64,000 bases of DNA from a virus. Of the stretch, positions 1 through 62,111 are shown one piece after another. Each line of letters begins with the position of its first letter. The first letter of the stretch is position 1. Where the stretch lies: positions 1-64,000 of the IMG/VR virus record IMGVR_UViG_3300009149_000027, one strand, 5' to 3'. The position numbers and the translations under genes were made by a program. Under the pieces are notes generated by a model. It saw nothing but the letters and a program-made list of their open reading frames with translations, was not told where the DNA came from and did not search any database.

Positions 1-539
1 GCCTTTTTGATAGGGATGGTGACTTTTGTATAGGGCGCAATGTTGACTTGTTGCACCATGCCTTGAATACCGCCATACTTGTCAATTATCCATTCGGAGA
101 AGGTGTCCTGGCTGCGGATACCCCACTTGCGCCAGCCAATCTTGCCATCATTGTATTTAGAGTTGTAGATGGGGTCGTCGCTGTCTCCGCCACGCATCTT
201 GAAACAAACTTCCATAAAACAGAAGCCGTAGGGCAACATGGTAAGGATTTCGCTCAGGGTATCTGACCAGGTGAAGCTCATGTCATTCAGGCACTCTTCC
301 ACATAGGTTGCCTGCTTTACGGCAATGGCGTTTTTCAGTTCGGCGGGCTTCACCTGCCAGGACACCTGACGCATGAGCATTTCAATGGCAAAGAGGACGG
401 CCCCCACAATCGGGTCGTCCATCATCTCTCGCACCACCTTGTACCAGCGGTCGCCTTGAAGTTCCCGCAGATACTCTTCTGTGACAACCCCGCCCTGGCG
501 TTGCAGGCCAGTGACGCCTAATTCTCTCATGTCAGGCAT
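1..539 (-). CDS. Portal protein, N-terminal part (cut by window edge)
   Basis: The gene starts at 539 and reads leftward off position 1, giving about 179 residues. The start is fixed by an AGGAGATGG ribosome binding site just upstream. The visible part contains DPIVGAVLFAIEMLMRQVSW and a MLPYGFCFMEV segment, typical of the N-terminus of portal proteins that begin by recognising a trimmed-back helix pair. Portal forms the dodecameric ring at the capsid vertex where terminase docks and DNA enters. It follows terL by 11 bases, the usual terL-portal order. Its C-terminal half lies outside the window. Confidence 0.8.
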   Translation of the reverse strand, partial: MPDMRELGVTGLQRQGGVVTEEYLRELQGDRWYKVVREMMDDPIVGAVLFAIEMLMRQVSWQVKPAELKNAIAVKQATYVEECLNDMSFTWSDTLSEILTMLPYGFCFMEVCFKMRGGDSDDPIYNSKYNDGKIGWRKWGIRSQDTFSEWIIDKYGGIQGMVQQVNIAPYTKVTIPIKK

Positions 540-550
540 AAACCATCTCC

Positions 551-2362
551 TTAAAGTTGTCCATTCCCACGCCACTTGCTCTTACCCAATATAGATTGCG
601 GCACAACCAGCACCGGGGGCATGTAGGTGTTGACGGCTGACCAGGCCATAGCCAGGGACATTACGGTATCGTCGTGTGCGTTAGAAGGAGCCGAGTACTT
701 CCACGCCCCGCTACCCGTCTGCTTCATCTCGTAGCTTTGCAACTCGCCAATCAGTATATCATCGTTCAGGATTTTCAACGTTTGTTGTTCCAGGCCCAGT
801 GACAGGCCCTTTATGATGGCGTCCTTGCTGGCCAGGGTGGTGTCGAAGGGGGTGATGGGATAGCCCTGGTCTCTCAGGGTGGTGATAATCGGGTCGCCAA
901 TCGAATTGCGCTCGGCTATCGTGACGATAGGGTGAAAGCGTTCCCAGGTTTGCTTGAAGCGCATCACCTGGAAACTGTAGTCTATCTGATTGAACCGGTC
1001 CATGTAGACAAGTTCATAGGTTGTGGTATCTATTATTGTAAAGCAAGTGAAGTCATTAACCCTGGCCCAATCGATTCCGCAGACATACACATGTCCCTCG
1101 ATGGCCCGTTCCTGGGGGATGGCGGTAGCGGCTGCCATGACGCCCCTGAACACGCTACCGGCGTCGTCGATGACCAGGGCCAGGTATTCCTGGTTGAAGA
1201 TACGCTCCGGGGTGTTATCCCTTACCTCGTCAATCGCCTTGGGGTTGATGAACGGATTATCGTAGGTGGTGAAGTGCCAGGTCTTCCATCCGTCCCGGCT
1301 TTTTGCCTTTTCGTACAGGTAGGAACCCCAATTCCTGCCCTTGGGCACGCCGGTGAACATCACCCAGCCACCGTAGTCAAGCAGGGTGCCTTCCAGGTAT
1401 TCAGTCCAAATCAACTCAGGCATGAGGGTGAACTCATCCACCACGGCCCCCATGATGCTCTCGCCAGCCAGGGATTCTGGCCTTTCCGCCGTACGCATCC
1501 AAATCTCGCTACCATTTGGCAGGCGAATCTCGAAGTTACTGCGATTGATCATCTTCCTGGGCTGTTCCCCGCTGGCCTTGATAGCCTGGGTGCATAAATC
1601 GTTCAAAAGCCGCCACGCCCGCTTCATGGAGGCGGACTTCCAGGACAAGCCCACCCACCAATACATGCCAGGCCGCATGGACTGCGCCCGCAGCAGGCGC
1701 TGTACGGAGGCTTCAGTGTTGTGGACAATAAAGCCCTCGGCAATGAAGTTATGATTATCTGCAACAGTGATGTCCCAGGTTTGGGTGTCATAGCACGAAA
1801 TGAGACTTCTGATGGGCACCAAGACGGGCGTGCGCCAATCGTTGTCCATGACCGTGTAAACTTGGGAATTTATGGTCAAGTCGCCAGCTTCTATCCAGCC
1901 GTCTTCGCTTAGAAATGGGTGATTCAACGTGCAAAGCAAGTCGTGATGGCCGGTTTTGACTTCAACAATCGCTTTGCGGCCATTGTTCATTACAGCTACA
2001 ACGGATTTATCCTCCATTTGGCGGGTTTCCAGATTGAAACTCAGCACCAAGTCGCCAACCACTATGTCCTCAACCATTTTCAGCGTGCCGTCCGCCATGT
2101 AGACACGTTGCCACCCCGGTAAGCACTTTCCCCACCGTCTGCCCCCCAGCACAACCCCGCTACCCGGCCATTCTATCATTTCTCGCTGCCCAGGGCTGTG
2201 GGGAGGGGGGAGTTGGATGATGCGCTTGTCCGTTGGCAGTTCGGGCGGGTCGATAATAGCCCAAGGATCGTCAATATCGTATTCCATCTCCTTGTCCATG
2301 CGCCGCTGGGCGGCACTCATGGTGGCCGTATCGATTTCTATCTTGCTCTTTCCACTTGCCAC
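551..2362 (-). CDS. terL: Terminase large subunit precursor, with intein
   Basis: This is the 603-residue precursor of the packaging ATPase/nuclease. The Walker A motif GGRRWGK ends at residue 79 and its next residue, Thr216, is separated from it by a 136-residue intein (residues 80-215). Walker B is GAVVDEF (305-311). The nuclease half shows GIDWARVND (D430), AERNSIGD (E484) and AHDDTVMSLA (D564/D565), matching the acidic cluster of large terminases. Without the intein the protein is 467 residues, normal for the family. The start is GTG with AGGAG six bases upstream. It needs splicing to restore the ATP-binding loop. An intrinsic terminator lies just upstream, so expression probably depends on read-through or an unseen promoter. 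Confidence 0.93.
   Translation of the reverse strand: MASGKSKIEIDTATMSAAQRRMDKEMEYDIDDPWAIIDPPELPTDKRIIQLPPPHSPGQREMIEWPGSGVVLGGRRWGKCLPGWQRVYMADGTLKMVEDIVVGDLVLSFNLETRQMEDKSVVAVMNNGRKAIVEVKTGHHDLLCTLNHPFLSEDGWIEAGDLTINSQVYTVMDNDWRTPVLVPIRSLISCYDTQTWDITVADNHNFIAEGFIVHNTEASVQRLLRAQSMRPGMYWWVGLSWKSASMKRAWRLLNDLCTQAIKASGEQPRKMINRSNFEIRLPNGSEIWMRTAERPESLAGESIMGAVVDEFTLMPELIWTEYLEGTLLDYGGWVMFTGVPKGRNWGSYLYEKAKSRDGWKTWHFTTYDNPFINPKAIDEVRDNTPERIFNQEYLALVIDDAGSVFRGVMAAATAIPQERAIEGHVYVCGIDWARVNDFTCFTIIDTTTYELVYMDRFNQIDYSFQVMRFKQTWERFHPIVTIAERNSIGDPIITTLRDQGYPITPFDTTLASKDAIIKGLSLGLEQQTLKILNDDILIGELQSYEMKQTGSGAWKYSAPSNAHDDTVMSLAMAWSAVNTYMPPVLVVPQSILGKSKWRGNGQL
1718..2125 (-). other. Mini-intein inside the terL Walker A motif
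   Basis: The intein has 136 residues. It begins with Cys1 (CLPGWQRVYMADG, block A), has a block B TLNH (Thr66, His69), a block F/G ending NHNFIAEGFIVHN, and is followed by Thr as the +1 extein residue. These are the nucleophile, assisting His and terminal Asn of a standard class 1 intein. No LAGLIDADG or HNH domain fits in this length, so it is a splicing-only mini-intein. It sits exactly between Lys and Thr of the P-loop, so unspliced protein cannot bind ATP properly. Confidence 0.95.
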
Positions 2363-2380
2363 AAAGCGCTCCTGAACACG

Positions 2381-2409
2381 AAAAAGCCCGCTGGTTGGGG
2401 CCAGCGGGC
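2381..2409 (-). terminator. Intrinsic terminator upstream of terL
   Basis: A perfect 9-bp stem (2386-2394 with 2401-2409, GCCCGCTGG/CCAGCGGGC) with a 6-base loop is followed, reading leftward, by five T residues (complement of 2381-2385). It lies between the 2455-2712 gene and the terL start at 2362. Confidence 0.8.
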
Positions 2410-2454
2410 CTCGCCCTCACCTACGGGCTAGTGTATCACGGATTGTTATGGAAA

Positions 2455-2712
2455 TCAATCCCCATCCCCAAACACAGACGGCAACTCATACCCCGCCATC
2501 GTAAGAATGCGCACCACGTCCACCAGCACATGGGGCTGGAAGAGCAGGCAAGCCTGGGTGCGCTGGATGGGCGACAAGGCCGCCACCTGCCCCCACTCTT
2601 CCTCGGTGTGAAAGCGCACGGTCATGGGCTTGCTGAACCCGTCAGCCTCCTTGCGTCCCTGTCCTCGATCCCCAAAGGGGCGGGGGGCGGTTTCCTGCTT
2701 TTCTTCACTCAC
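2455..2712 (-). CDS. Hypothetical protein, 85 aa
   Basis: The start is GTG, overlapping the end of the 2705-2881 gene. The N-terminus is basic and polar (RPFGDRGQGRKEADGFSKP), followed by MTVRFHTEEEWGQVAAL, which resembles the strand of ribbon-helix-helix proteins, and a helical C-terminus. It is the second gene of the leftward operon and ends before a terminator. It could be a small DNA-binding regulator or a packaging accessory. Function is not established. Confidence 0.7.
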   Translation of the reverse strand: MSEEKQETAPRPFGDRGQGRKEADGFSKPMTVRFHTEEEWGQVAALSPIQRTQACLLFQPHVLVDVVRILTMAGYELPSVFGDGD

Positions 2713-2881
2713 AATCGCTCTCCTTTCCTTGCACAGAGTGGGGCGGAAGGTCCATGTGCATGGAAACTTCTATTTCCTCGCCCAACGCCTGCACCCCTTC
2801 GTACATATCGCCAAGAATATCAGCAATGGCTTGCATGTACTCCTCCTCCGTCACGTCTTCACGAAGTATTGACTCACTCAT
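2705..2881 (-). CDS. Small acidic protein, 58 aa
   Basis: ATG start at 2881 (MSESILREDVTEEEYMQAIA). The stop at 2705-2707 overlaps the GTG start of the next gene, indicating translational coupling. It is the first gene behind the leftward promoter at 2930-2958. The protein is acidic and predicted helical, with no recognised domain. Confidence 0.6.
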   Translation of the reverse strand: MSESILREDVTEEEYMQAIADILGDMYEGVQALGEEIEVSMHMDLPPHSVQGKESDCE

Positions 2882-2929
2882 AGTCTCTTTTCCTTTCTAC
2901 CATTACACGAATATCTGATAACTATCAAC

Positions 2930-2958
2930 ATTCTACACCCAAAACTCACCATTGTCAA
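2930..2958 (-). promoter_or_regulatory. Sigma70-like promoter, leftward
   Basis: Reading leftward: TTGACA (complement of 2953-2958), 17-base spacer, TAGAAT (complement of 2930-2935). It faces the small-gene/terL/portal operon. GTTGATAGTTATC follows directly after the -10, a variant of the operator seen at two other leftward promoters. Confidence 0.75.
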
Positions 2959-2972
2959 GTGTGGATATGGGC

Positions 2973-3001
2973 TTGACATGGGGCAAAAGGTATGATATCC
3001 T
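2973..3001 (+). promoter_or_regulatory. Possible rightward promoter
   Basis: TTGACA at 2973-2978 with a 17-base spacer to TATCCT (2996-3001). The -35 is perfect and the -10 is weak (4 of 6). It would give a leader of about 240 bases before the gene at 3247. The leader holds a CCGGCC/GGCCGG hairpin near 3200-3225 and no convincing gene. Confidence 0.4.
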
Positions 3002-3246
3002 TGATAGGTAACAGGATTGCTTGACAATAACAGCATTCATACACCGAGTGTCGTCCTTGAACCCTCTGCACCGGGAAAACATCTTCTCTCGATACTCCAG
3101 ATGCCGCACCCTTCAACAATGCAGCATCAGGACCACGACGCCGCCTCTCATGGCCGTGCAGACGCAAGGCGGCTGGCACTCGGTGACTTCCGTTTCCGGC
3201 CTCGCTTCGACAGGGGGCCGGAGGCACTACCGCAAAGGAGATAAGC

Positions 3247-3543
3247 ATGAACATCTCAACTGCCCTCGGCACATCCTTCCCCGCCGCCCGGGGACTTCAA
3301 ATCATCTACGTCCCCACCCACGCCAACGGCAACCTCAACCATCCAGATTGCGAACAGGGCTTCGTCATGTACACGAAAGTAGACACCGCTTTCGCCTACT
3401 GCGCCTTCTGGCGCAAGGGGACTAATGAACTGCGCACCCTCAGCAATGCCGAAGGCGTCTACTACCGTGACCTGATTGCCGCACCCACCCGCTCCCCAGA
3501 AGTCGTGGACGCAGCTATCGCCCTGCTGCTACAGGAGGACTAA
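3247..3543 (+). CDS. Hypothetical protein, 98 aa
   Basis: Start supported by AAAGGAGATAAGC upstream. First gene of a rightward run of small genes. It contains a HPDCEQGFVMY segment and one further Cys but no recognised domain. Length, position and good ribosome binding site support a real early or accessory phage gene. Confidence 0.7.
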   Translation: MNISTALGTSFPAARGLQIIYVPTHANGNLNHPDCEQGFVMYTKVDTAFAYCAFWRKGTNELRTLSNAEGVYYRDLIAAPTRSPEVVDAAIALLLQED

Positions 3544-3548
3544 CCCTC

Positions 3549-3788
3549 ATGATTCATGGTAAATACCAAGTCTGGATTGACGCCTACACAGAAACCATGC
3601 CCTATCTTCCCATCTGCTTCCACATCGGGGACGATCCCATCGTCGCCTCCCTTTGCGAAAAGACAGCCAGGGAGATTTACCCTAATTTCACCGTGCGCTT
3701 TGTCGTTGATGGCCCACCTGTCCCATACGATAAGAGGCCCTATGCTCCCGTATCCGCCGAAAAGCTGAAAGAATCAGGACTCGCATGA
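3549..3788 (+). CDS. Hypothetical protein, 79 aa
   Basis: Start follows an AGGAGGACT ribosome binding site that overlaps the end of the previous gene. It reads like a small mixed alpha/beta protein (YLPICFHIGDDPIVASL, then YPNFTVRFVVDG). Its stop overlaps the next ATG (ATGA-type coupling at 3785-3788). No family recognised. Confidence 0.65.
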   Translation: MIHGKYQVWIDAYTETMPYLPICFHIGDDPIVASLCEKTAREIYPNFTVRFVVDGPPVPYDKRPYAPVSAEKLKESGLA

Positions 3789-4075
3789 ACCTGCTCACCC
3801 ACTACGCCAACTGGCGCAAAGCCCGTATGCTCCAATCGAAACTCGATGATCTTGACCGCACACGCACCATCAACGCCATGAAATCCCTCGGCTACGAAGG
3901 CATGGTGCTGGAAGCCGCTATCGTCGCCCACAACATCCCACCCCAGAGTCTTTGCCTCATGCTCGCCCACGAGTTCTCCCTCCAAGAAGCCTTGAGCATC
4001 TGGGACCACTGCATCGACAATGGCATCGACTTCGACAATGCTTGGGAAGCCGCATCTAAGGGACAACTATCGTGA
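3785..4075 (+). CDS. Hypothetical helical protein, 96 aa
   Basis: Start overlaps the previous stop. Mostly helical, with a basic N-terminus (NWRKARMLQSKLDDLDRTR) and a repeated helix pattern (AHEFSLQEALSIWDHCIDNG). The stop overlaps the GTG of the next gene. No domain recognised. Confidence 0.65.
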   Translation: MNLLTHYANWRKARMLQSKLDDLDRTRTINAMKSLGYEGMVLEAAIVAHNIPPQSLCLMLAHEFSLQEALSIWDHCIDNGIDFDNAWEAASKGQLS

Positions 4076-4467
4076 CAAACTCGGTAGTGGAGTACAACAT
4101 CCAAACCGCAGAAACCTTCGCCTTGGGTGACACCTCCAAGCCACCTACAGGTGATGTGCTTATCCGCTTCGTGGGGACAAAGTTCTCCCATTCCGTGGAT
4201 GGCATGGAGGGTAAGCATGGTTCCGTCGCCCTTATCAAGAAGCAGATGCCAAGCGCATGTCTTAGCGGGGAATACCCTGTTCCAGAAGTCATCATTTCAG
4301 CCAACGGCAATGAGTGGACCTGGGAAGTCGTCTTGGGGATTGCAAAGGAAATGGGTGAATTCATCGCCTTTGACCTGAAAAGAATCTCAAACAATTCACT
4401 ATACAGGTTCGCAAAGTCCATGGTCCAATGGCAAATGGAAGCAAAATCAGCAATCAAAGGAGCATGA
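4072..4467 (+). CDS. Hypothetical protein, 131 aa
   Basis: GTG start overlapping the previous stop by four bases. The central part is beta-rich (VLIRFVGTKFSHS, PEVIISANG) and the C-terminus helical. The last bases lie just upstream of an AAAGGAG site for the next gene, so translation is probably coupled. No family recognised. Confidence 0.65.
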   Translation: MTNSVVEYNIQTAETFALGDTSKPPTGDVLIRFVGTKFSHSVDGMEGKHGSVALIKKQMPSACLSGEYPVPEVIISANGNEWTWEVVLGIAKEMGEFIAFDLKRISNNSLYRFAKSMVQWQMEAKSAIKGA

Positions 4468-4469
4468 CT

Positions 4470-4742
4470 ATGCAAGGGGACTACGAAATCGGAGGCAGAT
4501 GGGGAAACCATGTCAGTCTATGGGATAAAGATAAATTCTCTAATACTGACTTGGATACTCAGTTAGTGCGAGTGTATGGACACAAATCTATTCGTCCACA
4601 CAAAGGGCAAACTTTAATCGGAGAATTTCGGAAAAGTTTCATAAAGTTTGAATTTGTAAAAGTTGACCTGTGCGCAGAACCGCAGGATATGTTCTTTGCG
4701 GACGTGAAGGCAATAGACCAAATAATAAAGGAGACACCATGA
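4470..4742 (+). CDS. Hypothetical protein, 90 aa
   Basis: The start at 4470 (MQGDYEIGGRWG) is chosen because AGGAG ends seven bases upstream; an ATG six bases earlier is too close. The sequence is beta-rich (LIGEFRKSFIKFEFVKVDL). The stop overlaps the next ATG at 4739. Function unknown. Confidence 0.65.
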   Translation: MQGDYEIGGRWGNHVSLWDKDKFSNTDLDTQLVRVYGHKSIRPHKGQTLIGEFRKSFIKFEFVKVDLCAEPQDMFFADVKAIDQIIKETP

Positions 4743-5323
4743 CCCAGTACACCATGACCGCCGTAAAACCCATCAACCCAGGAGATACCGTCACCGTTGA
4801 CACGTCCCTGGGCCAAGTCTCCCGCTACCACCCGCCTACACTTGATTTCCTCGTCGGCAAGAATGTTGCCGTCTCTCTCACTATCTCCCACCATTGCGCA
4901 AGCTTGGTCAGAGGCATTCTCAAACACTCCCCTGGCATCTCAAACTATTGCGTCTTCGTCACCGATACCACCGAATACGGAGGCAGCGCCTTTTGCTTCC
5001 AACCGCAGGCCGTTATGAGCATTGCTATCGCCAACTCACCCGTGCCACTTATCACACTCTACCCTACAGCGCAGGCAAAGCTCCACGAAGATGACTTTGA
5101 CGCACAAGAGGAAAACGACAAACTCGTCTACGCTGACGAGGGCAACAAGGACCTGTGGCATCCCCATACTGTCGTTACCCTCGGCACCGACGTCATCCTG
5201 GAACTGGACAACGGCACCCTCAAGATTGGCAGATACAACGCTTCCATGCACGGCTGGGAGTATGGCACGGGCGTGAATAGAACTGCGACCACCGGCGTAG
5301 TACGGTGGAGCTTTGGTGGATAA
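4739..5323 (+). CDS. Hypothetical protein, 194 aa
   Basis: Start at 4739 is supported by AAAGGAGACACC and a four-base overlap with the previous stop. The protein reads as beta-strand-rich (DTVTVDTSLGQVSRYHPP, TVVTLGTDVILELDNGTLK) with no signal peptide. It is the largest gene of this small-gene run. No family recognised. Confidence 0.65.
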   Translation: MTQYTMTAVKPINPGDTVTVDTSLGQVSRYHPPTLDFLVGKNVAVSLTISHHCASLVRGILKHSPGISNYCVFVTDTTEYGGSAFCFQPQAVMSIAIANSPVPLITLYPTAQAKLHEDDFDAQEENDKLVYADEGNKDLWHPHTVVTLGTDVILELDNGTLKIGRYNASMHGWEYGTGVNRTATTGVVRWSFGG

Positions 5324-5395
5324 TGGACAATCATGCCGCCGAATGCGCACCGCCGCTTGTAAGCGAAGAACGTTATGTGGAAAAAGGAACCTGCT

Positions 5396-5917
5396 ATGAA
5401 AATCATCAAAACCCCCTTCGGCTACTATTGCACTTCCCCCAACGGACACTACGGTCGCACCAATGGCAAATCCATCTACGAAGCTCAAATCCTCTGCGAT
5501 CCCCACGCAGAAAACATGCGCTCCTTGCTCTCCGCTTACCTCGACGACGTGCAAGCCATTGACATCAACCAAAGCTCCACATCTCCCTGCGCCGTGTGCG
5601 CTCAGGAAAAAACAAAACCCCACGCCCAGACAATCATCAAAACTCTGGTCAATACTGCGCAAGGGCACAGAACCTCAAAGCCCAATACAGGAGATACACC
5701 AATGTCCTATATCATCATCGCTGACGTAGACACAACCAATGGCGCTAACTCAGGTCACGTGGATGACGTTCAGGCTCGCATCCTCAAGCAACACAACGGG
5801 CACGTCTCTTTCGACATCAACTCCTCCTTCGATACCCAAAAACAAGATACCCTCAACCTCTGCCAATCCCTCATTAACTCCGGGTTCATTCAGTTCTCCA
5901 TCCGCCACTCTTACTAG
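5396..5917 (+). CDS. Hypothetical protein, possibly two fused small genes
   Basis: ATG at 5396 follows AAAGGAACC. The frame stays open for 173 residues, but a second start at 5702 (MSYIIIADVDTTNG) has its own strong AGGAGATACACC site. The two halves read as independent small proteins: a first with CDPHAENMRSLL and a CAVC pair, and a second with an alternating beta pattern. Either the stop between two genes was lost, or the second half is also made alone by internal initiation. Confidence 0.6.
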   Translation: MKIIKTPFGYYCTSPNGHYGRTNGKSIYEAQILCDPHAENMRSLLSAYLDDVQAIDINQSSTSPCAVCAQEKTKPHAQTIIKTLVNTAQGHRTSKPNTGDTPMSYIIIADVDTTNGANSGHVDDVQARILKQHNGHVSFDINSSFDTQKQDTLNLCQSLINSGFIQFSIRHSY

Positions 5918-5932
5918 AAAGGAACCGTCACC

Positions 5933-6217
5933 ATGAACCTATACCTGTGGACCAGAATAAATAGCGTGTCGTACAACCACCATAGCGAGGGCGGACTTGT
6001 CGTCATCGCCAAGAATATCGAGAATGCCGCCGAACTGATTGCTCAGTACAACGAAAAGGCAAGAAAAGAAAAAGGTTACGACCGAGATGCTATCGCTTTC
6101 GCTCCCCTTGACGAGAGAGATAAGCAGGAAAAAATGTTTGGCGAATACATCCCCTATCAGCTAGATGGTTTCATCGCACCAGACATCTTTGTATTTCCAG
6201 ACGCCGGTTGCTGCTGA
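5933..6217 (+). CDS. Hypothetical protein, 94 aa
   Basis: Start at 5933 follows AGAAAGGAACC. A charged helix (EKARKEKGYDRDAIAF) sits in the middle and the protein ends in a CC pair. Last gene of the run before the transposon. No domain recognised. Confidence 0.65.
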   Translation: MNLYLWTRINSVSYNHHSEGGLVVIAKNIENAAELIAQYNEKARKEKGYDRDAIAFAPLDERDKQEKMFGEYIPYQLDGFIAPDIFVFPDAGCC

Positions 6218-6319
6218 ATGGCACACTTGCCGCCACGCACGAATGCCGCCTGCCGACAACCGCCTACCGTCACCGTGTGTCGTGTGTCGTGAGACGGATT
6301 AACACCTGCTGTAAACATT

Positions 6320-7580
6320 ATGATTCCCTTGGCAGAAAATCAACGGCTTTAGCTGCTGGATGAATGTTTTTGTATGTTATGCGATGACATACGCAACTTG
6401 CATATTGCATAACAATGCGTTATACTGCATCTATGAAAACGTACAAATATCGCATTTACCCAACAACGGCCCAAGAGACAATTCTGGCTAAGATGCTAGA
6501 AGAGTGTCGCTGGCTGTACAACAAAGTTCTGGAAACCCGTAAAAAAAGCTATGAGTTGCAAGGTGTGTCCCTGGGCAACTACGATACAATGACCATGATT
6601 CCAGATTGGAAGCTAAATAGACCTTCTCTCAAAGCTGTTCATTCTCAAGTTCTGCAAAATGTAAATATGCGTGTTGACCTGGCTTTTCAAGCCTTTTTTC
6701 GACGTGTCAAAGCTGGTGAAACTCCCGGTTACCCCCGATTCAAGGGCTATGGCCGCTACGATAGCATGACGTTTCCGCAATACGGGAACGGTGCAAAACT
6801 GGTAGGTAATGTTCTAACTCTATCTAAGCTGGGCAATGTCAAGGTAAAACTTCACCGAGAGTTCTGCGGAACATCCAAGACGGTCACGATACGCCGTTCG
6901 TCTACCGGCAAGTGGTTCGCTTGTCTTTCTTGCGAATGCGAAGCAACGCCATTGCCAGACGGACAAAAGGTTGTCGGAGTTGACGTGGGACTCTCCACAT
7001 TTGCCACGCTGTCTAACGGCGAAAAGATAGACAACCCTCGATTCTTCAAAACAGAACAAGATGCACTCGGCAAAGCCCAACGCCGCATGGAGAAGGAAGC
7101 GAAGGGTACGCCACAACGGGCCAATCGTCGTAAAGTTGTGGCGCGTATCCACGAACGAATAGCCAATCGGCGCACTGACTTTGCCCACAAAACTTCCCGC
7201 AAACTTGTCAACACCTACGGCACAATTGTCTTTGAGAAACTCGCCGTAGTCGATATGATGTCCAATCACACAAAAGTCTTTGGCAACAAGCTTAATAAGA
7301 GTATCGCTGACGCCGCTTGGAGTCAGCTTGCACAGTTCACAGCCTACAAAGCGGAAGATGCTGGCAGGTTGTTCTTGCAAGTTGACCCTCGCAATACCAG
7401 TAAAAAATGCTCTCGCTGTGGCTTGCTTGTTGAAAAAGACTTGAGTGTTCGTATTCATAATTGTCCACATTGCGGCTTGGTTCTCGATAGAGACGTAAAC
7501 GCTGCTATCAACATTCTTTCGTTGGGATTACAACGAATGGGTTCACATCCCTAGAAGCCCACAGCTTTAGTCGTGGGAGT
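6320..7580 (+). mobile_element. IS200/IS605-type element, tnpB only (approximate ends)
   Basis: The left side has an imperfect hairpin at 6341-6358 (CAACGGC, loop TTTA, GCTGCTG), and the right side one at 7558-7577 (CCCACAGC, loop TTTA, GTCGTGGG). These are the subterminal hairpins typical of this family. There is no tnpA, so the element would need a transposase in trans. Exact cleavage sites cannot be set by eye. It sits between two unrelated small-gene runs, in an intergenic place. Confidence 0.75.
6433..7554 (+). CDS. tnpB: TnpB RNA-guided nuclease
   Basis: The start is set at 6433 (MKTYKYRIYPT), the usual family N-terminus, giving 373 residues. RuvC residues are intact: D184 in VVGVDVGLSTFA, E268 in GTIVFEKL and D354 in DRDVNAAINIL. 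A four-Cys zinc finger is complete (C326/C329 and C344/C347). TnpB is an RNA-guided DNA endonuclease that helps keep the transposon by cutting empty sites, using an RNA from the element's right end. A possible -10 (TATACT, 6421-6426) is very close to the ATG, so initiation is unclear. No frameshift or missing residue, so it looks active. Confidence 0.95.
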   Translation: MKTYKYRIYPTTAQETILAKMLEECRWLYNKVLETRKKSYELQGVSLGNYDTMTMIPDWKLNRPSLKAVHSQVLQNVNMRVDLAFQAFFRRVKAGETPGYPRFKGYGRYDSMTFPQYGNGAKLVGNVLTLSKLGNVKVKLHREFCGTSKTVTIRRSSTGKWFACLSCECEATPLPDGQKVVGVDVGLSTFATLSNGEKIDNPRFFKTEQDALGKAQRRMEKEAKGTPQRANRRKVVARIHERIANRRTDFAHKTSRKLVNTYGTIVFEKLAVVDMMSNHTKVFGNKLNKSIADAAWSQLAQFTAYKAEDAGRLFLQVDPRNTSKKCSRCGLLVEKDLSVRIHNCPHCGLVLDRDVNAAINILSLGLQRMGSHP

Positions 7581-7600
7581 AATCACGTAGAGACGCTTTG
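7440..7600 (+). ncRNA. Candidate omega RNA (reRNA) with guide
   Basis: In this family the guide RNA scaffold overlaps the 3' end of tnpB and ends at the right-end hairpin, here 7558-7577, with the guide copied from the flank. The guide would lie at about 7581-7600. Boundaries are inferred from family knowledge; only the hairpin is seen directly. Confidence 0.5.
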
Positions 7601-7950
7601 TAGAAAATAAAAATAGGATTAGGGTAGTGACACGCCTAACCCGCCGACCGCCCCCTCACGCAATTTCGGGCCACCCCCTCCACGTCATCCGCTCCCCCGT
7701 GCCGCTACAGTCGCCCTGCTACACGTTCTCGCCCCCATGCCCCCATGCCACCCTGCGGACGGCTTGCAACATTGCGCCACGTGGCGGGCGTCGTGTGCGT
7801 TCTGGGGCTGGGAACGTGGGCACGGCTGGGGGTTGCGGAAGACGGCGGGGAGATAGGAGACCTGGGGACGGCTTCGGGGAGACGAGCGGGCAAAGAGAGA
7901 CCCGGCTGGGGGAGCCGGGTCTTTGTTTTGCTATGGGGTTTGGCGTGAGG
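7555..7950. other. Noncoding segment with strand-skew switch and G4 motif
   Basis: After the tnpB right end, about 300 bases carry no convincing gene. The first half (7630-7760) is C-rich and the second (7790-7920) G-rich on the + strand. Four G-runs at 7804-7832 with loops of 2, 5 and 7 bases fit the canonical G-quadruplex pattern. Open frames here are repetitive in Pro/Arg/Gly and look spurious. Confidence 0.5.
7896..7924. terminator. Bidirectional intrinsic terminator
   Basis: Stem GACCCGGCT (7899-7907) with AGCCGGGTC (7913-7921), loop GGGGG, then TTTGTTTTG rightward. A run of A/G precedes it, so it may work in both directions. It separates the rightward tnpB region from the leftward gene ending at 7951. 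Confidence 0.75.
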
Positions 7951-8232
7951 TTAAACAACACGCCGGGCGGTTTTGCTTTCCCTCCCAATCGCATACAAGC
8001 TGCCATTGGGTAGCTTTACGTATCCCACTGCGTCTGTATGCCCTCCCGTTCCCAGGTTGTCATATATGCGCATACTTCCCATGCGAAATTGTCGGTTGAT
8101 TTGCTTCCTGGTTGGGTTGTCAATTCCTGGGGTTACATATTGCATGTTCACAATCTTTCCATTGTATCCCGCCAAGACGTGGAGGCTTGACGCTTCCTGT
8201 AACTCTCTCATTATTTCGTCTGTGGTTCCCAT
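7951..8232 (-). CDS. Hypothetical protein, 93 aa
   Basis: Leftward gene ending just after the terminator. Mixed alpha/beta, with a basic central part (NPTRKQINRQFRMGSMRIYDN) and a C-terminal KLPNGSLYAIGRESKTARRVV segment. No family recognised. Last gene of the 9023-7951 group. Confidence 0.65.
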   Translation of the reverse strand: MGTTDEIMRELQEASSLHVLAGYNGKIVNMQYVTPGIDNPTRKQINRQFRMGSMRIYDNLGTGGHTDAVGYVKLPNGSLYAIGRESKTARRVV

Positions 8233-8236
8233 AGCA

Positions 8237-8482
8237 TCACCCCTCCGCCCAGATCAGGCACACCGTCGGCGAGCCGTGGCCAAAGCTGGCCAGGTCCACG
8301 CCTACGCACTGCTCGCCCGTGGCCGGCACCGTGTAGGCGTACCCGTAAGCGTCCCACGTGGCCACGGCAATCATAAGCAGGATAGCGGCAATCCCTACGC
8401 ACCAGGCCGCCCGTATGCGCCCAGGGTGGCGAGGGTGCAAGCGGTTGGTTCGGGGTGCGGTTGTGTCTGTGAAGTTGGTCAT
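8237..8482 (-). CDS. Small membrane protein, 81 aa
   Basis: Start at 8482 follows AGAGGAG. One clear membrane segment (AAWCVGIAAILLMIAVA, about residues 26-42) follows a basic N-terminal part, and the remainder (with two Cys) would lie outside. Start overlaps the stop of the gene at 8479. Function unknown. Confidence 0.65.
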   Translation of the reverse strand: MTNFTDTTAPRTNRLHPRHPGRIRAAWCVGIAAILLMIAVATWDAYGYAYTVPATGEQCVGVDLASFGHGSPTVCLIWAEG

Positions 8483-8709
8483 AGTTCGGTCTCCTCTTGT
8501 GTAGGTTGACAGTTGCCGATACCGAAAAGATGGCACGAGCGGCTGTAGTCGGCGACAATGCCAAAAGCGGCGGCGGCGGCATGATTGCACTGGATGGCGG
8601 CGGCGGTATTTTCGGCAAGTGCGGGGATTGCCTTGGATGATTCGATGGCTTGCCAGGTGTCGTGAGCGAGTAGGCCGGCTATACGTTGCTGTGCGGTCTC
8701 AAGTTTCAT
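8479..8709 (-). CDS. Hypothetical protein, 76 aa
   Basis: Helical, Ala-rich N-terminal two thirds (AIPALAENTAAAIQCNHAAAAAFG) and a short Cys-containing tail. Overlaps its neighbours at both ends by ATGA-type junctions, so it belongs to a coupled operon. Function unknown. Confidence 0.6.
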   Translation of the reverse strand: MKLETAQQRIAGLLAHDTWQAIESSKAIPALAENTAAAIQCNHAAAAAFGIVADYSRSCHLFGIGNCQPTQEETEL

Positions 8710-9023
8710 GATTGGTTGCCCCAGACCGGTCGGTCGGCCTCATTGACCCATTCATCACAGATGCAAAAATCTCGTGTCCCGCGTGCAAGCCGGCCGGTTG
8801 AGACCTTGCGCTGGCGATACAGACCGGACCAGATAATTTTTGTCGCATAGTCCCGTACAGGCAGATTGCGGTCAGTCTCTTCAAATCGATACGACAAATC
8901 GCCCGTCCACTCGGAGAGATAACCGCCTACTGACGTGCCGCTGGCGACTCGTGCCGCTTGCTCTGCCGTCGCACGTGTGCGGGCTATCGCTGCCATGCGT
9001 TCCTCGTGTGTTGCTGTGTTCAT
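8706..9023 (-). CDS. Hypothetical protein, 105 aa
   Basis: The start at 9023 (MNTATHEERM) is preferred because GGAGA lies nine bases upstream; the ATG nine bases earlier touches that site. The N-terminal helix is Ala/Arg-rich, and the C-terminal part has DFCICDEWVNEADRPVWG. First gene of its operon, behind the promoter at 9086-9114. Confidence 0.65.
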   Translation of the reverse strand: MNTATHEERMAAIARTRATAEQAARVASGTSVGGYLSEWTGDLSYRFEETDRNLPVRDYATKIIWSGLYRQRKVSTGRLARGTRDFCICDEWVNEADRPVWGNQS

Positions 9024-27452: not shown

Positions 27453-28262
27453 TCAAAACGGGATCTCCACATCGGCGTCAGCTAGGTTAAACTCGCCCGG
27501 ATCTGTCAGGTCGATGGGCAGCGGTGGCATGATGTCATAGCCGATCACCTCAATGTCCATTTCGGTGTGTGGCGGGAAGTCCCATTGTCCCGTCTCAGGA
27601 AAGGACATTTGCCCCTCTTGCGCCGAAAGGTTCGACACTTTGAAATTGACGACGATGGCGTTGGCGGGCGGGTCGATCTCTACTTGTTCCATGTAGCACC
27701 AAAGTTCGCCGTTATCGTAGATTTCTCGAACCCACTCAAACTCTACCCCGTGGATGCTCCCGATCCCGGTTTCTTCCCTGCCACTGAGTTCGCCATTGAG
27801 TTCGCCATTGTCCAGGATGGCCCATGCATCGAACCATGCTTCCGCTTCCGGCTGGGCCACACTTTGCCGAGCCGCACAAGCTAGAACGTCCAGGGCGTCC
27901 AAGGCGAGGTCTTCCGGCACGATACCTAGCTCGTCGCCGCCCGCTATGAACGCCTCAATTGCGCCGACCGCACTTTCGATGTGGGCGGCCTTGATGTGGT
28001 CGAATGAGACATTGTGCCCCGCCGATGTGGTCGCCGCTTCCGGCTGGTGCGCTTGGAGGCGGGTGTTCCAGCGTAGCATCACCTGATTCATTAGCAGATA
28101 AGAAACGTCCTCGCCCCGACATGTCAGCGTCATCTTTGCCGGGCAGCCATTGCACAGGATAGAAACCTCATTCCGCCCGGTTTCCATGATGGTGGCTTCG
28201 GAGCCGCAAAACGGACACGGCTTGATTTCGGTTTGGTCAAATGTCTCTTTGTCGCTAGTCAT
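27453..28262 (-). CDS. Lar-like N-terminal zinc domain protein, 269 aa
   Basis: KPCPFCGSEATIMETGR, ILCNGCPAKM, and RWNTR near residue 68 give the zinc-ribbon pattern of Lar family restriction-alleviation proteins, normally 60-100 residues. Here it is followed by about 190 residues of unknown fold (acidic, with IVVNFKVSNLSAQEGQ). Possibly counteracts host restriction; this is inferred from the N-terminal motif only. Confidence 0.6.
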   Translation of the reverse strand: MTSDKETFDQTEIKPCPFCGSEATIMETGRNEVSILCNGCPAKMTLTCRGEDVSYLLMNQVMLRWNTRLQAHQPEAATTSAGHNVSFDHIKAAHIESAVGAIEAFIAGGDELGIVPEDLALDALDVLACAARQSVAQPEAEAWFDAWAILDNGELNGELSGREETGIGSIHGVEFEWVREIYDNGELWCYMEQVEIDPPANAIVVNFKVSNLSAQEGQMSFPETGQWDFPPHTEMDIEVIGYDIMPPLPIDLTDPGEFNLADADVEIPF

Positions 28263-37822: not shown

Positions 37823-38014
37823 TGTAGGTAGCGAAGACATGCCACCAAGCGTACTCGCCTAAGTCAACGGTTTTTTTGTACCCCTCATACGTCCCCTCCG
37901 ACACAATCGGATGGGGGTTAGGGTCAACCAAAAACGGGTCAACCGTTGGCGGGCGAACAGCTTGGTGGCTACCTTAACCTTCATCCGATTGTGTTTTGTT
38001 TAAGGAGACGTGAA
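37823..38014 (+). promoter_or_regulatory. Folded leader with mutually exclusive stems
   Basis: Stem 1 GCCACCAAGC (37841-37850) with GCTTGGTGGC (37960-37969). Stem 2 CAACGG (37865-37870) with CCGTTG (37943-37948). Stem 3 CCCCTCCGA (37893-37901) with TCGGATGGGG. A further 13-bp pairing, 37901-37913 with 37982-37994 (ACACAATCGGATG/CATCCGATTGTGT), uses bases of stem 3 and is followed by TTTGTTT, like a terminator. GGGTCAACC occurs twice. This layout is riboswitch- or attenuator-like. Confidence 0.55.
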
Positions 38015-38515
38015 ATGAGAAAACCACCAAAACCCATCCCGCCCATGACGGAAAAGCACATTGACCGTTTCTGGAAAAAGGTTGACGTGCAGGGAAAAGA
38101 TGATTGCTGGTTATGGATTGCTGGAAAAGACGGATACGGCTATGGGGCGCAAAACATTGATGGAAGAATAGTGAAGGCTCATCGTATTTCTTGGAAAATA
38201 CACAACGGGAATATACCTAGCGGCCTGGATGTTTTGCATGATTGCGACACGCCAGCGTGCGTAAACCCAAAACACCTGTGGGTTGGCACACATACAGAAA
38301 ACATGAATGACAAAAATCGCAAGGGGCGAAATGGCTTTCCATCACTCAAGGGAGAGGAGCATGGAAACGCAAAACTGACCGATGTGCTAGTGTTAGAAAT
38401 ACGTGCCGAGGCAAAGCGGGGGAGGAGCAAAAAATGGATGGCAAAAAAGTATAACGTTGATCCATCTACCATCAGTGATGTTGTGCGCCGAAAATCATGG
38501 AAGCACGTCAAATAG
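38015..38515 (+). CDS. HNH homing endonuclease with C-terminal HTH
   Basis: 166 residues, start at 38015 after AAGGAGACGTGAA. AHRISWKIHNGNIPSGLDVL, HDCDTPACVNPKHLWVG and HTENMNDKN match HNH_3; C-terminus (KKWMAKKYNVDPSTISDVVR) is a helix-turn-helix. Its stop touches the stop of the opposite gene at 38516. Related to the genes at 26712 and 29099. Confidence 0.9.
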   Translation: MRKPPKPIPPMTEKHIDRFWKKVDVQGKDDCWLWIAGKDGYGYGAQNIDGRIVKAHRISWKIHNGNIPSGLDVLHDCDTPACVNPKHLWVGTHTENMNDKNRKGRNGFPSLKGEEHGNAKLTDVLVLEIRAEAKRGRSKKWMAKKYNVDPSTISDVVRRKSWKHVK

Positions 38516-48557: not shown

Positions 48558-49169
48558 ATGCTTGAAAAAACGTGTACCAAATGCGGAAAAACCAAGACCG
48601 TTGATAATTTTTACAAAGTTACAAGAAAGGAAGGGAAATACGAAAGCAGGTGCAAGGAATGCACTATTAAAAGACAAAGAGATGCGTTGATGAAGAAAAA
48701 GAAAATAGTCGTTAGTGAAAAGGTATGTGTATTTAAGGAATGTGTTCATGGTGGAGTCCCACAGGACATTGATAACTTTCACAAAAACATTCTCAGCGTT
48801 GATAGTCACAATATATATTGCAAAGACTGCCAAAAAATAGTAGCGGAAAGATACCTGTCCAAGAATGTGGATGAAATAAGACGCAAGGAACGAGAAAGAT
48901 ATTGGGCGGGAAGGAAAAAACCTCTGAATAGGATCAGGAAAAGAAATGAAGAACCCGCTCTCATGTTGCATCCAGAAAAAGGTGCAGCCAGGTTAGCCGT
49001 ACTAAATGCCAAGAGGCGTGGAGAAATTCCGTTTGCATCATCCCTCATCTGCGCCGATTGCGGTAAACCTGCAAAGCACTATCATCACGAAAGTTATCTC
49101 CCTGAACACTGGTTAGACGTTGTGCCACTGTGTACGCTTTGTCATGGTAAGCGGCATCGGAAGTATTAG
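48558..49169 (+). CDS. HNH homing endonuclease with zinc fingers
   Basis: 203 residues, opposite to the late genes. N-terminal CTKCGKTKTVDNFYK...CKECT and a second finger (CKDC), then a basic linker, then CADCGKPAKHYHHESYLPEH and WLDVVPLCTLCHGKRH, the HNH core with CxxC pairs. Free-standing, inserted between the 48017 gene and the tape measure. Has its own promoter and hairpin. Confidence 0.9.
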   Translation: MLEKTCTKCGKTKTVDNFYKVTRKEGKYESRCKECTIKRQRDALMKKKKIVVSEKVCVFKECVHGGVPQDIDNFHKNILSVDSHNIYCKDCQKIVAERYLSKNVDEIRRKERERYWAGRKKPLNRIRKRNEEPALMLHPEKGAARLAVLNAKRRGEIPFASSLICADCGKPAKHYHHESYLPEHWLDVVPLCTLCHGKRHRKY

Positions 49170-61409: not shown

Positions 61410-62111
61410 ATGGAATTAACCAAGGAATGCTCTCAGTGTGGGAAGACATTCCCAAAGCCATCCTCCTGTAGTCTAGCAAGCTGGACTACCCGCAAATTCT
61501 GCTCCATGCTGTGTAAGGCGGAAAGTCAGAAAGGAAGACCGGCATGGAACAAGGGAGTAAAATCTTCGCTCCCTAGTCAAGCTACCTTCATCCCTTGCCG
61601 CATTTGCGGAAAACCTACCAAAACTTCTGGAACATCTAAACATCAGTTGTATGGACGGATTCCATGCGACAAGCCGGAATGTATTGAAGCCTCTCGCAAG
61701 TTGAAAAATGACAGAATCAGCGCCACGGCTCTTAGAAAGTACGCCAGCGGTGAGAGAGTAGCTTCTACTGATGGATGGAAAAACGTTAGCAGAGTCAGCC
61801 AGGAAGAAGAACTTATTCTCCCCTGGATGACTGCTAATGGTTTCGTTCCGCAGTACAAGTTCCTGACTGGCGTTCATACTAACAAGCTCCCACGTATGTT
61901 CTCTCTTGACTTCGCATTGCCAGAGCGCAAGCTATACATCGAGATTGACGGTACTGTTCACAGACTTCGGAAAGAGCGAGATGCTAGACGTGACGCCATG
62001 ATGACAGAACGTGGCTGGACTGGGTTGCGCATACCATCCAAAAACGTTATCGACAACATGGCTCATGTCAAGAAATCCATTCTTGCTTTTATCAGTGAAC
62101 ATTCTGGCTAG
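61410..62111 (+). CDS. Free-standing homing endonuclease, PD-(D/E)XK (DUF559/Vsr-like)
   Basis: 233 residues, start at 61410 after GAAAGG. N-terminal zinc motifs (CSQCGKTF, FCSMLCKAE), a second (CRICGKPTKTSG), then the nuclease domain: MFSLDFALPERKLYIEIDGT, then VHRLRKERDARRDAMMTERG. Core residues D (LDF), E (YIEID), D, H, RD are intact. Antisense to the late operon, between the gene at 61325 and the major capsid gene. Confidence 0.85.
   Translation: MELTKECSQCGKTFPKPSSCSLASWTTRKFCSMLCKAESQKGRPAWNKGVKSSLPSQATFIPCRICGKPTKTSGTSKHQLYGRIPCDKPECIEASRKLKNDRISATALRKYASGERVASTDGWKNVSRVSQEEELILPWMTANGFVPQYKFLTGVHTNKLPRMFSLDFALPERKLYIEIDGTVHRLRKERDARRDAMMTERGWTGLRIPSKNVIDNMAHVKKSILAFISEHSG

Follow-up and report, generated by a model that had tools for sequence, protein, structure and literature searches.

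A mini-intein in the ATP-binding loop of a phage large terminase, probably descended from a LAGLIDADG homing intein

A class-1 mini-intein of 136 residues lies between the Lys and the Thr of the Walker A motif in the large terminase (TerL) of the phage represented by IMG/VR record IMGVR_UViG_3300009149_000027. With a probability of about 0.8, this element at the TerL1-a site derives from a LAGLIDADG homing intein, has lost its endonuclease and has since been kept by inheritance.

The window, the whole stretch of 64,000 nucleotides that was analysed, corresponds to bases 1-64000 of the 67,059-base virus record. Each end of the record (window 1-575 at one, record 66510-67059 at the other) has its own version of the portal gene start; the two overlap by some 550 bases and are 85% identical over 552 bases. 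With this overlap, and with a second contig from the same phage (IMGVR_UViG_3300024262_000572, L001/L128) spanning the junction, the genome is likely to be circular or circularly permuted, with a size of about 66.5 kb. There seems to be strain variation at the record join, where the portal gene sits.

The interrupted terminase gene

The terminase reading frame was assigned by Pfam Terminase_6N (E = 1e-7) and by PHROG 2, terminase large subunit (E = 1.4e-29). Its features are given below in window coordinates.

551-2362, minus strand: large terminase precursor (TerL), 603 aa, GTG start (ORF, Pfam, PHROG)
2126-2362, minus strand: N-extein, 79 aa, ending in GGRRWGK, the first part of Walker A
1718-2125, minus strand: mini-intein, 136 aa, class-1 type (Cys1), without endonuclease (families, fold model)
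1850-2125, minus strand: N-terminal splicing part, residues 1-92, blocks A to N4 (same-site alignment; model strands to residue 92)
1919-1930, minus strand: block B, T66-L-N-H69 (T66 and H69 invariant in the same-site alignment)
1829-1849, minus strand: short linker, residues 93-99 (same-site alignment; model loop between strands 88-92 and 100-104)
1718-1828, minus strand: C-terminal splicing part, residues 100-136, blocks F and G, ending in H135-N136
551-1717, minus strand: C-extein, 388 aa plus stop, starting with the +1 Thr, the rest of Walker A; its motifs are Walker B (VVDEF), GVPKG and the nuclease motifs GIDWAR and HDDTVMS (alignment with phage TerL proteins)

The insert occupies residues 80-215 of the precursor and is in frame and free of stops (CLPGWQRVYM...FIAEGFIVHN). 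It is preceded by SGVVLGGRRWGK, and the sequence downstream of it is TEASVQRLLRAQ. Removal of the intein yields a joined extein of 467 aa in which GGRRWGKT is restored, the split point being GGRRWGK/T (the slash marks the insertion site). Both the division of Walker A between Lys and Thr and the length of the spliced product are as put forward in the preliminary description, and the active-site position that it regarded as favoured equals the published TerL1-a site (PMC5050341).

In the alignment with phage TerL proteins, the Walker B (DE), GVPKG and nuclease Asp motifs of the extein match up with their counterparts. The intein displaces the P-loop in this alignment, and the loop was hence read from the joined extein, which aligns across the P-loop with intein-free TerL. 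Judged from its sequence, the terminase is otherwise intact apart from the insert.

The Thr of Walker A helps to bind Mg-ATP. Because the intein separates the Lys from this Thr, established P-loop chemistry gives sound reason to expect that packaging should require splicing. The 603-aa precursor would be unable to form the ATP-binding loop. Cys1, the Thr and His of block B, His135-Asn136 and Thr+1 would bring about acyl shift, transesterification, Asn cyclisation and ligation, and splicing would thereby give the 467-aa motor protein.

The splicing domain

The 136 residues matched PF14890 (Intein_splicing) with an E-value of 5.6e-13 and TIGR01443 (intein C-terminus) with an E-value of 1.8e-7, both above the cut-offs, that of PF14890 being curated. 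The match to TIGR01445 (intein N-terminus; E = 6e-5) fell slightly below its cut-off. The top solved relative in a PDB sequence search was the Spl DnaX mini-intein (7cfv, E = 1.9e-13). An AlphaFold2 model of the intein, for which a five-sequence alignment served as input, had a mean pLDDT of 90.8, with the five models spanning 54 to 91. Foldseek searches with this model retrieved the solved mini-intein 6frh (E = 2.4e-11) and 2in0 (TM 0.93), and the TM scores to the Mtu RecA, Ssp DnaB and Npu DnaB mini-inteins were 0.92-0.93. Sequence families and modelled fold alike identify the insert as an intein splicing domain, at a level of agreement far beyond chance.

The splicing set is complete, with Cys1, the block-B TxxH, the penultimate His, the terminal Asn and the +1 Thr all present, and C1, T66, H69, D118, H135 and N136 are invariant in an alignment of five same-site inteins. 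No match to a LAGLIDADG, HNH or other endonuclease domain was detected in the 136 aa with Pfam and NCBIfam. The mini-intein proposed in the preliminary description is thus borne out in its coordinates, which are exact, in its splicing residues and in its lack of an endonuclease, with Pfam, NCBIfam, the PDB sequence match and the AlphaFold2 fold in agreement. We infer that the intein splices.

A non-splicing relic or an assembly artefact is scarcely credible. The catalytic residues and the frame are intact, as is the rest of the gene, and the second contig carries an identical intein in a terL that differs from that of the window by one base. Exact-peptide-word searches with the 136 aa or the whole protein gave only this second contig as a close relative. 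No further intein was found in the record with PF14890. A self-splicing RNA intron was considered and set aside, there being no Rfam match in window 1-9000. Recent acquisition could not be argued from base composition: the GC content is 49.5% in the intein vs 55.9% in the extein, a gap that is not decisive, an equally low GC content occurring in 16% of the window's 408-base stretches.

Origin of the intein

Five other IMG/VR contigs, found by the pattern GRRxGK/CxxG and by intein alignment searches, have inteins resembling that of the window exactly at K/T, each reading GRRxGK/C...HN/T and sharing its +1 Thr. These inteins comprise 331 aa in L131 (equal to the L122 contig), 426 in L132, 428 in L133, 428 in L134 and 418 in L156, and are thus larger (331-428 aa) than the endonuclease-free 136-aa intein of the window. 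Pfam LAGLIDADG_3 was found in L131-L134, that is, in all four scanned. Pfam terminase domains were found in L131, L132 and L134; L133 gave no Pfam terminase match, though its loop is the same, and the loop of L156 is also that of the other same-site contigs. L131 is without about 97 residues of a region common to L132-L134. The linker of the window intein, residues 93-99, falls at about the position of the endonuclease region in these relatives, gap placement being approximate.

In a head-to-head comparison of bit scores that took in L131-L134 and other inteins and left out L156, the best matches of the window intein were the splicing parts of L131-L134 (102, 100, 95.5 and 84 bits), the others scoring at most 70. 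The stretches MADGT, GDLVLS and NFIAEGF are common to the window and same-site inteins. Identity to L131-L134 is 40-50% for the intein, a figure that covers short, fast-evolving domains, vs 31-36% in local alignments of the exteins. These comparisons are consistent with an intein that moved among phage terminases and then lost its endonuclease in the phage of the window.

The first of two trees placed the window intein with L131-L134 with support of 62/91. In the second tree, for which the sampling was different and included L156, the window and same-site inteins did not form a clade; constraining them gave p-AU 0.054, near rejection of the grouping, with long branches in play. In view of these trees, shared ancestry of the window intein and the same-site LAGLIDADG inteins is treated as likely and no firmer than that. 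The weak tree support and the p-AU value would also suit an independent insertion of an endonuclease-free intein that does not come from the same-site LAGLIDADG inteins. Moreover, the TerL of Acinetobacter phage vB_AbaM_ME3 (KU935715) has a 137-aa mini-intein three residues upstream of the window site, an indication that small inteins reach the loop more than once. Nevertheless, the best sequence matches sit at exactly the same site and have the three stretches above in common, and independent insertion is regarded as unlikely.

On the preferred reading, descent from a homing intein, the ancestor was most likely a LAGLIDADG-bearing intein homing among phage terminases at K/T. In the window copy the endonuclease would be gone, with a short linker left, and it appears to have been lost as opposed to never present. 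When the intein alignment was searched against bacterial genomes, only more distant inteins were recovered, none of them at a terminase-like GRRxGK loop (host proteins were judged by eye). The terminase alignment offered no usable conserved stretch for bacterial genomes.

A second, clearly different group of inteins, 415-461 aa long, was found at the same GRRxGK/C motif in other contigs. As these distinct inteins occupy the same motif in further contigs, they show the site to be a recurrent intein target. LAGLIDADG was detected in 6/6 ORFs of this group that were scanned, while a terminase family was matched only by L123; the scans of L110, L113, L115, L117 and L129 gave LAGLIDADG in 5/5 and a Pfam terminase in 0/5. 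Large ORFs with GRR[SA]GK/C and inteins of 422-461 aa at the P-loop Lys, distinct from that of the window, were seen in L097-L099, L102, L105, L110, L113, L115, L117, L121 and L129.

Empty sites were sampled with 80 relatives of the window TerL fetched from IMG/VR, at up to 46% identity. None of the 80 has an intein in its terminase ORF, and no insertion was present in any of the 75 loops that could be read; four of the remaining ORFs end before the loop and one (L073) is misaligned there.

Persistence without an endonuclease

Terminases are essential to tailed phages. Loss of an intein takes an exact in-frame deletion in the essential gene, and such clean removal is rare. The preliminary description had held that a form without a homing nuclease needs another way to persist. 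Part of this puzzle stands, but only part, because larger same-site inteins, four of them with LAGLIDADG, exist in other phages, and endonuclease loss together with rare clean deletion suffices. Since clean deletion is rare, endonuclease-free persistence needs no special mechanism. The mini-intein would be inherited on as it splices, and only the exact in-frame deletion would restore the essential gene. We infer that no regulation is involved in its retention.

It is distinctly unlikely that this single terminase site holds all stages at once with the mini form kept by a benefit, be it splicing-gated packaging or trans homing. In the first of these, splicing conditional on redox, temperature or host state would gate DNA packaging, as the preliminary description had suggested it may, and the mini-intein would be retained for this reason. 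The ATP-binding loop is interrupted, so that the unspliced protein should be inactive, and, in addition to Cys1, two further cysteines (Cys65 and Cys111) lie inside the intein. The idea has also been published for other terminase inteins, which were proposed to control packaging in the paper on cyanophage Mic1 (PMC7156551). However, in the assays of Kelley et al. 2016 five terminase inteins, none of them TerL1-a, spliced readily; the ligated product was dominant and precursor was readily visible in just one (PMC5050341). The 75/75 readable relatives without a loop intein likewise speak against a general need for a gate, and conditional splicing is judged quite improbable as the cause of retention.

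Trans homing, in which a free-standing phage nuclease would cut a terL that has no intein and repair of the break would copy the intein into it, is considered highly improbable. The record does contain free-standing nuclease genes, namely an HNH_3 endonuclease ORF (37946-38515, plus strand) and an ORF with a DUF559/MTES_1575 restriction-nuclease-like C-terminus (61410-62111, plus strand). The latter is on the strand opposite to its neighbours and could be a free-standing homing nuclease. A TnpB-like protein of 379 aa (OrfB_IS605, Cas12f1-like TNB, HTH) is also encoded at 6415-7554, plus strand. Nevertheless, no such nuclease gene adjoins terL, and nucleases of this sort are widespread among phages and may act on sites of their own. 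The longest match shared by the joined terL junction and the TnpB region is 10 bases; with this one junction match, TnpB as a trans homing nuclease guided to empty terL was rejected.

Two further ORFs of the window were noted. A 203-aa ORF at 48558-49169 (plus strand) begins with a zinc-finger-like CTKCGKTK, lies on the strand opposite to the surrounding tail genes and has a sub-threshold match to Stc1 as its sole Pfam match. The ORF at 27453-28262 (minus strand) has an N-terminal Lar-like restriction alleviation protein domain.

Relation to known inteins

The name TerL1-a is given to the site at which an intein parts the invariant Lys of the terminase P-loop from its Thr, a position described as 'classic' for P-loop insertions (PMC5050341). 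The likeness of the window intein to the TerL1-a inteins of mycobacteriophages is one of site: their hosts are terminase_1 proteins, whereas the 136-aa intein of the window sits in a terminase_6-type protein. The ME3 mini-intein, likewise in the P-loop, is inserted at GRR/TGKT and is 32% identical to the window intein; it (L004 3001-3411) is not annotated in the KU935715 record. The TerL of Microcystis phage Mic1 is also a terminase with a small intein for which packaging regulation has been proposed (PMC7156551), but its large intein precedes TPKG in the C-motif region, its small one (146 aa) lies in the nuclease domain and none is in the P-loop. The Spl DnaX, Mtu RecA and Npu DnaB mini-inteins (7cfv, 2in0 and 4o1r) share the fold and are similar in size, but reside in other host proteins, with 26-28% identity in the structural matches.

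Within the open-licence literature, inteins of this kind and their insertion at this site have been described before, and the intein of the window is a further example; an earlier report of a same-site mini-intein is possible. Existing knowledge of inteins is unchanged by this example, which contributes one more naturally occurring mini-intein in the P-loop of a terminase. Its small splicing domain may have practical use. Together with its relatives it provides full-length, shortened, mini and empty states of a single residue pair, a set that could help in studying endonuclease loss and persistence in phages.
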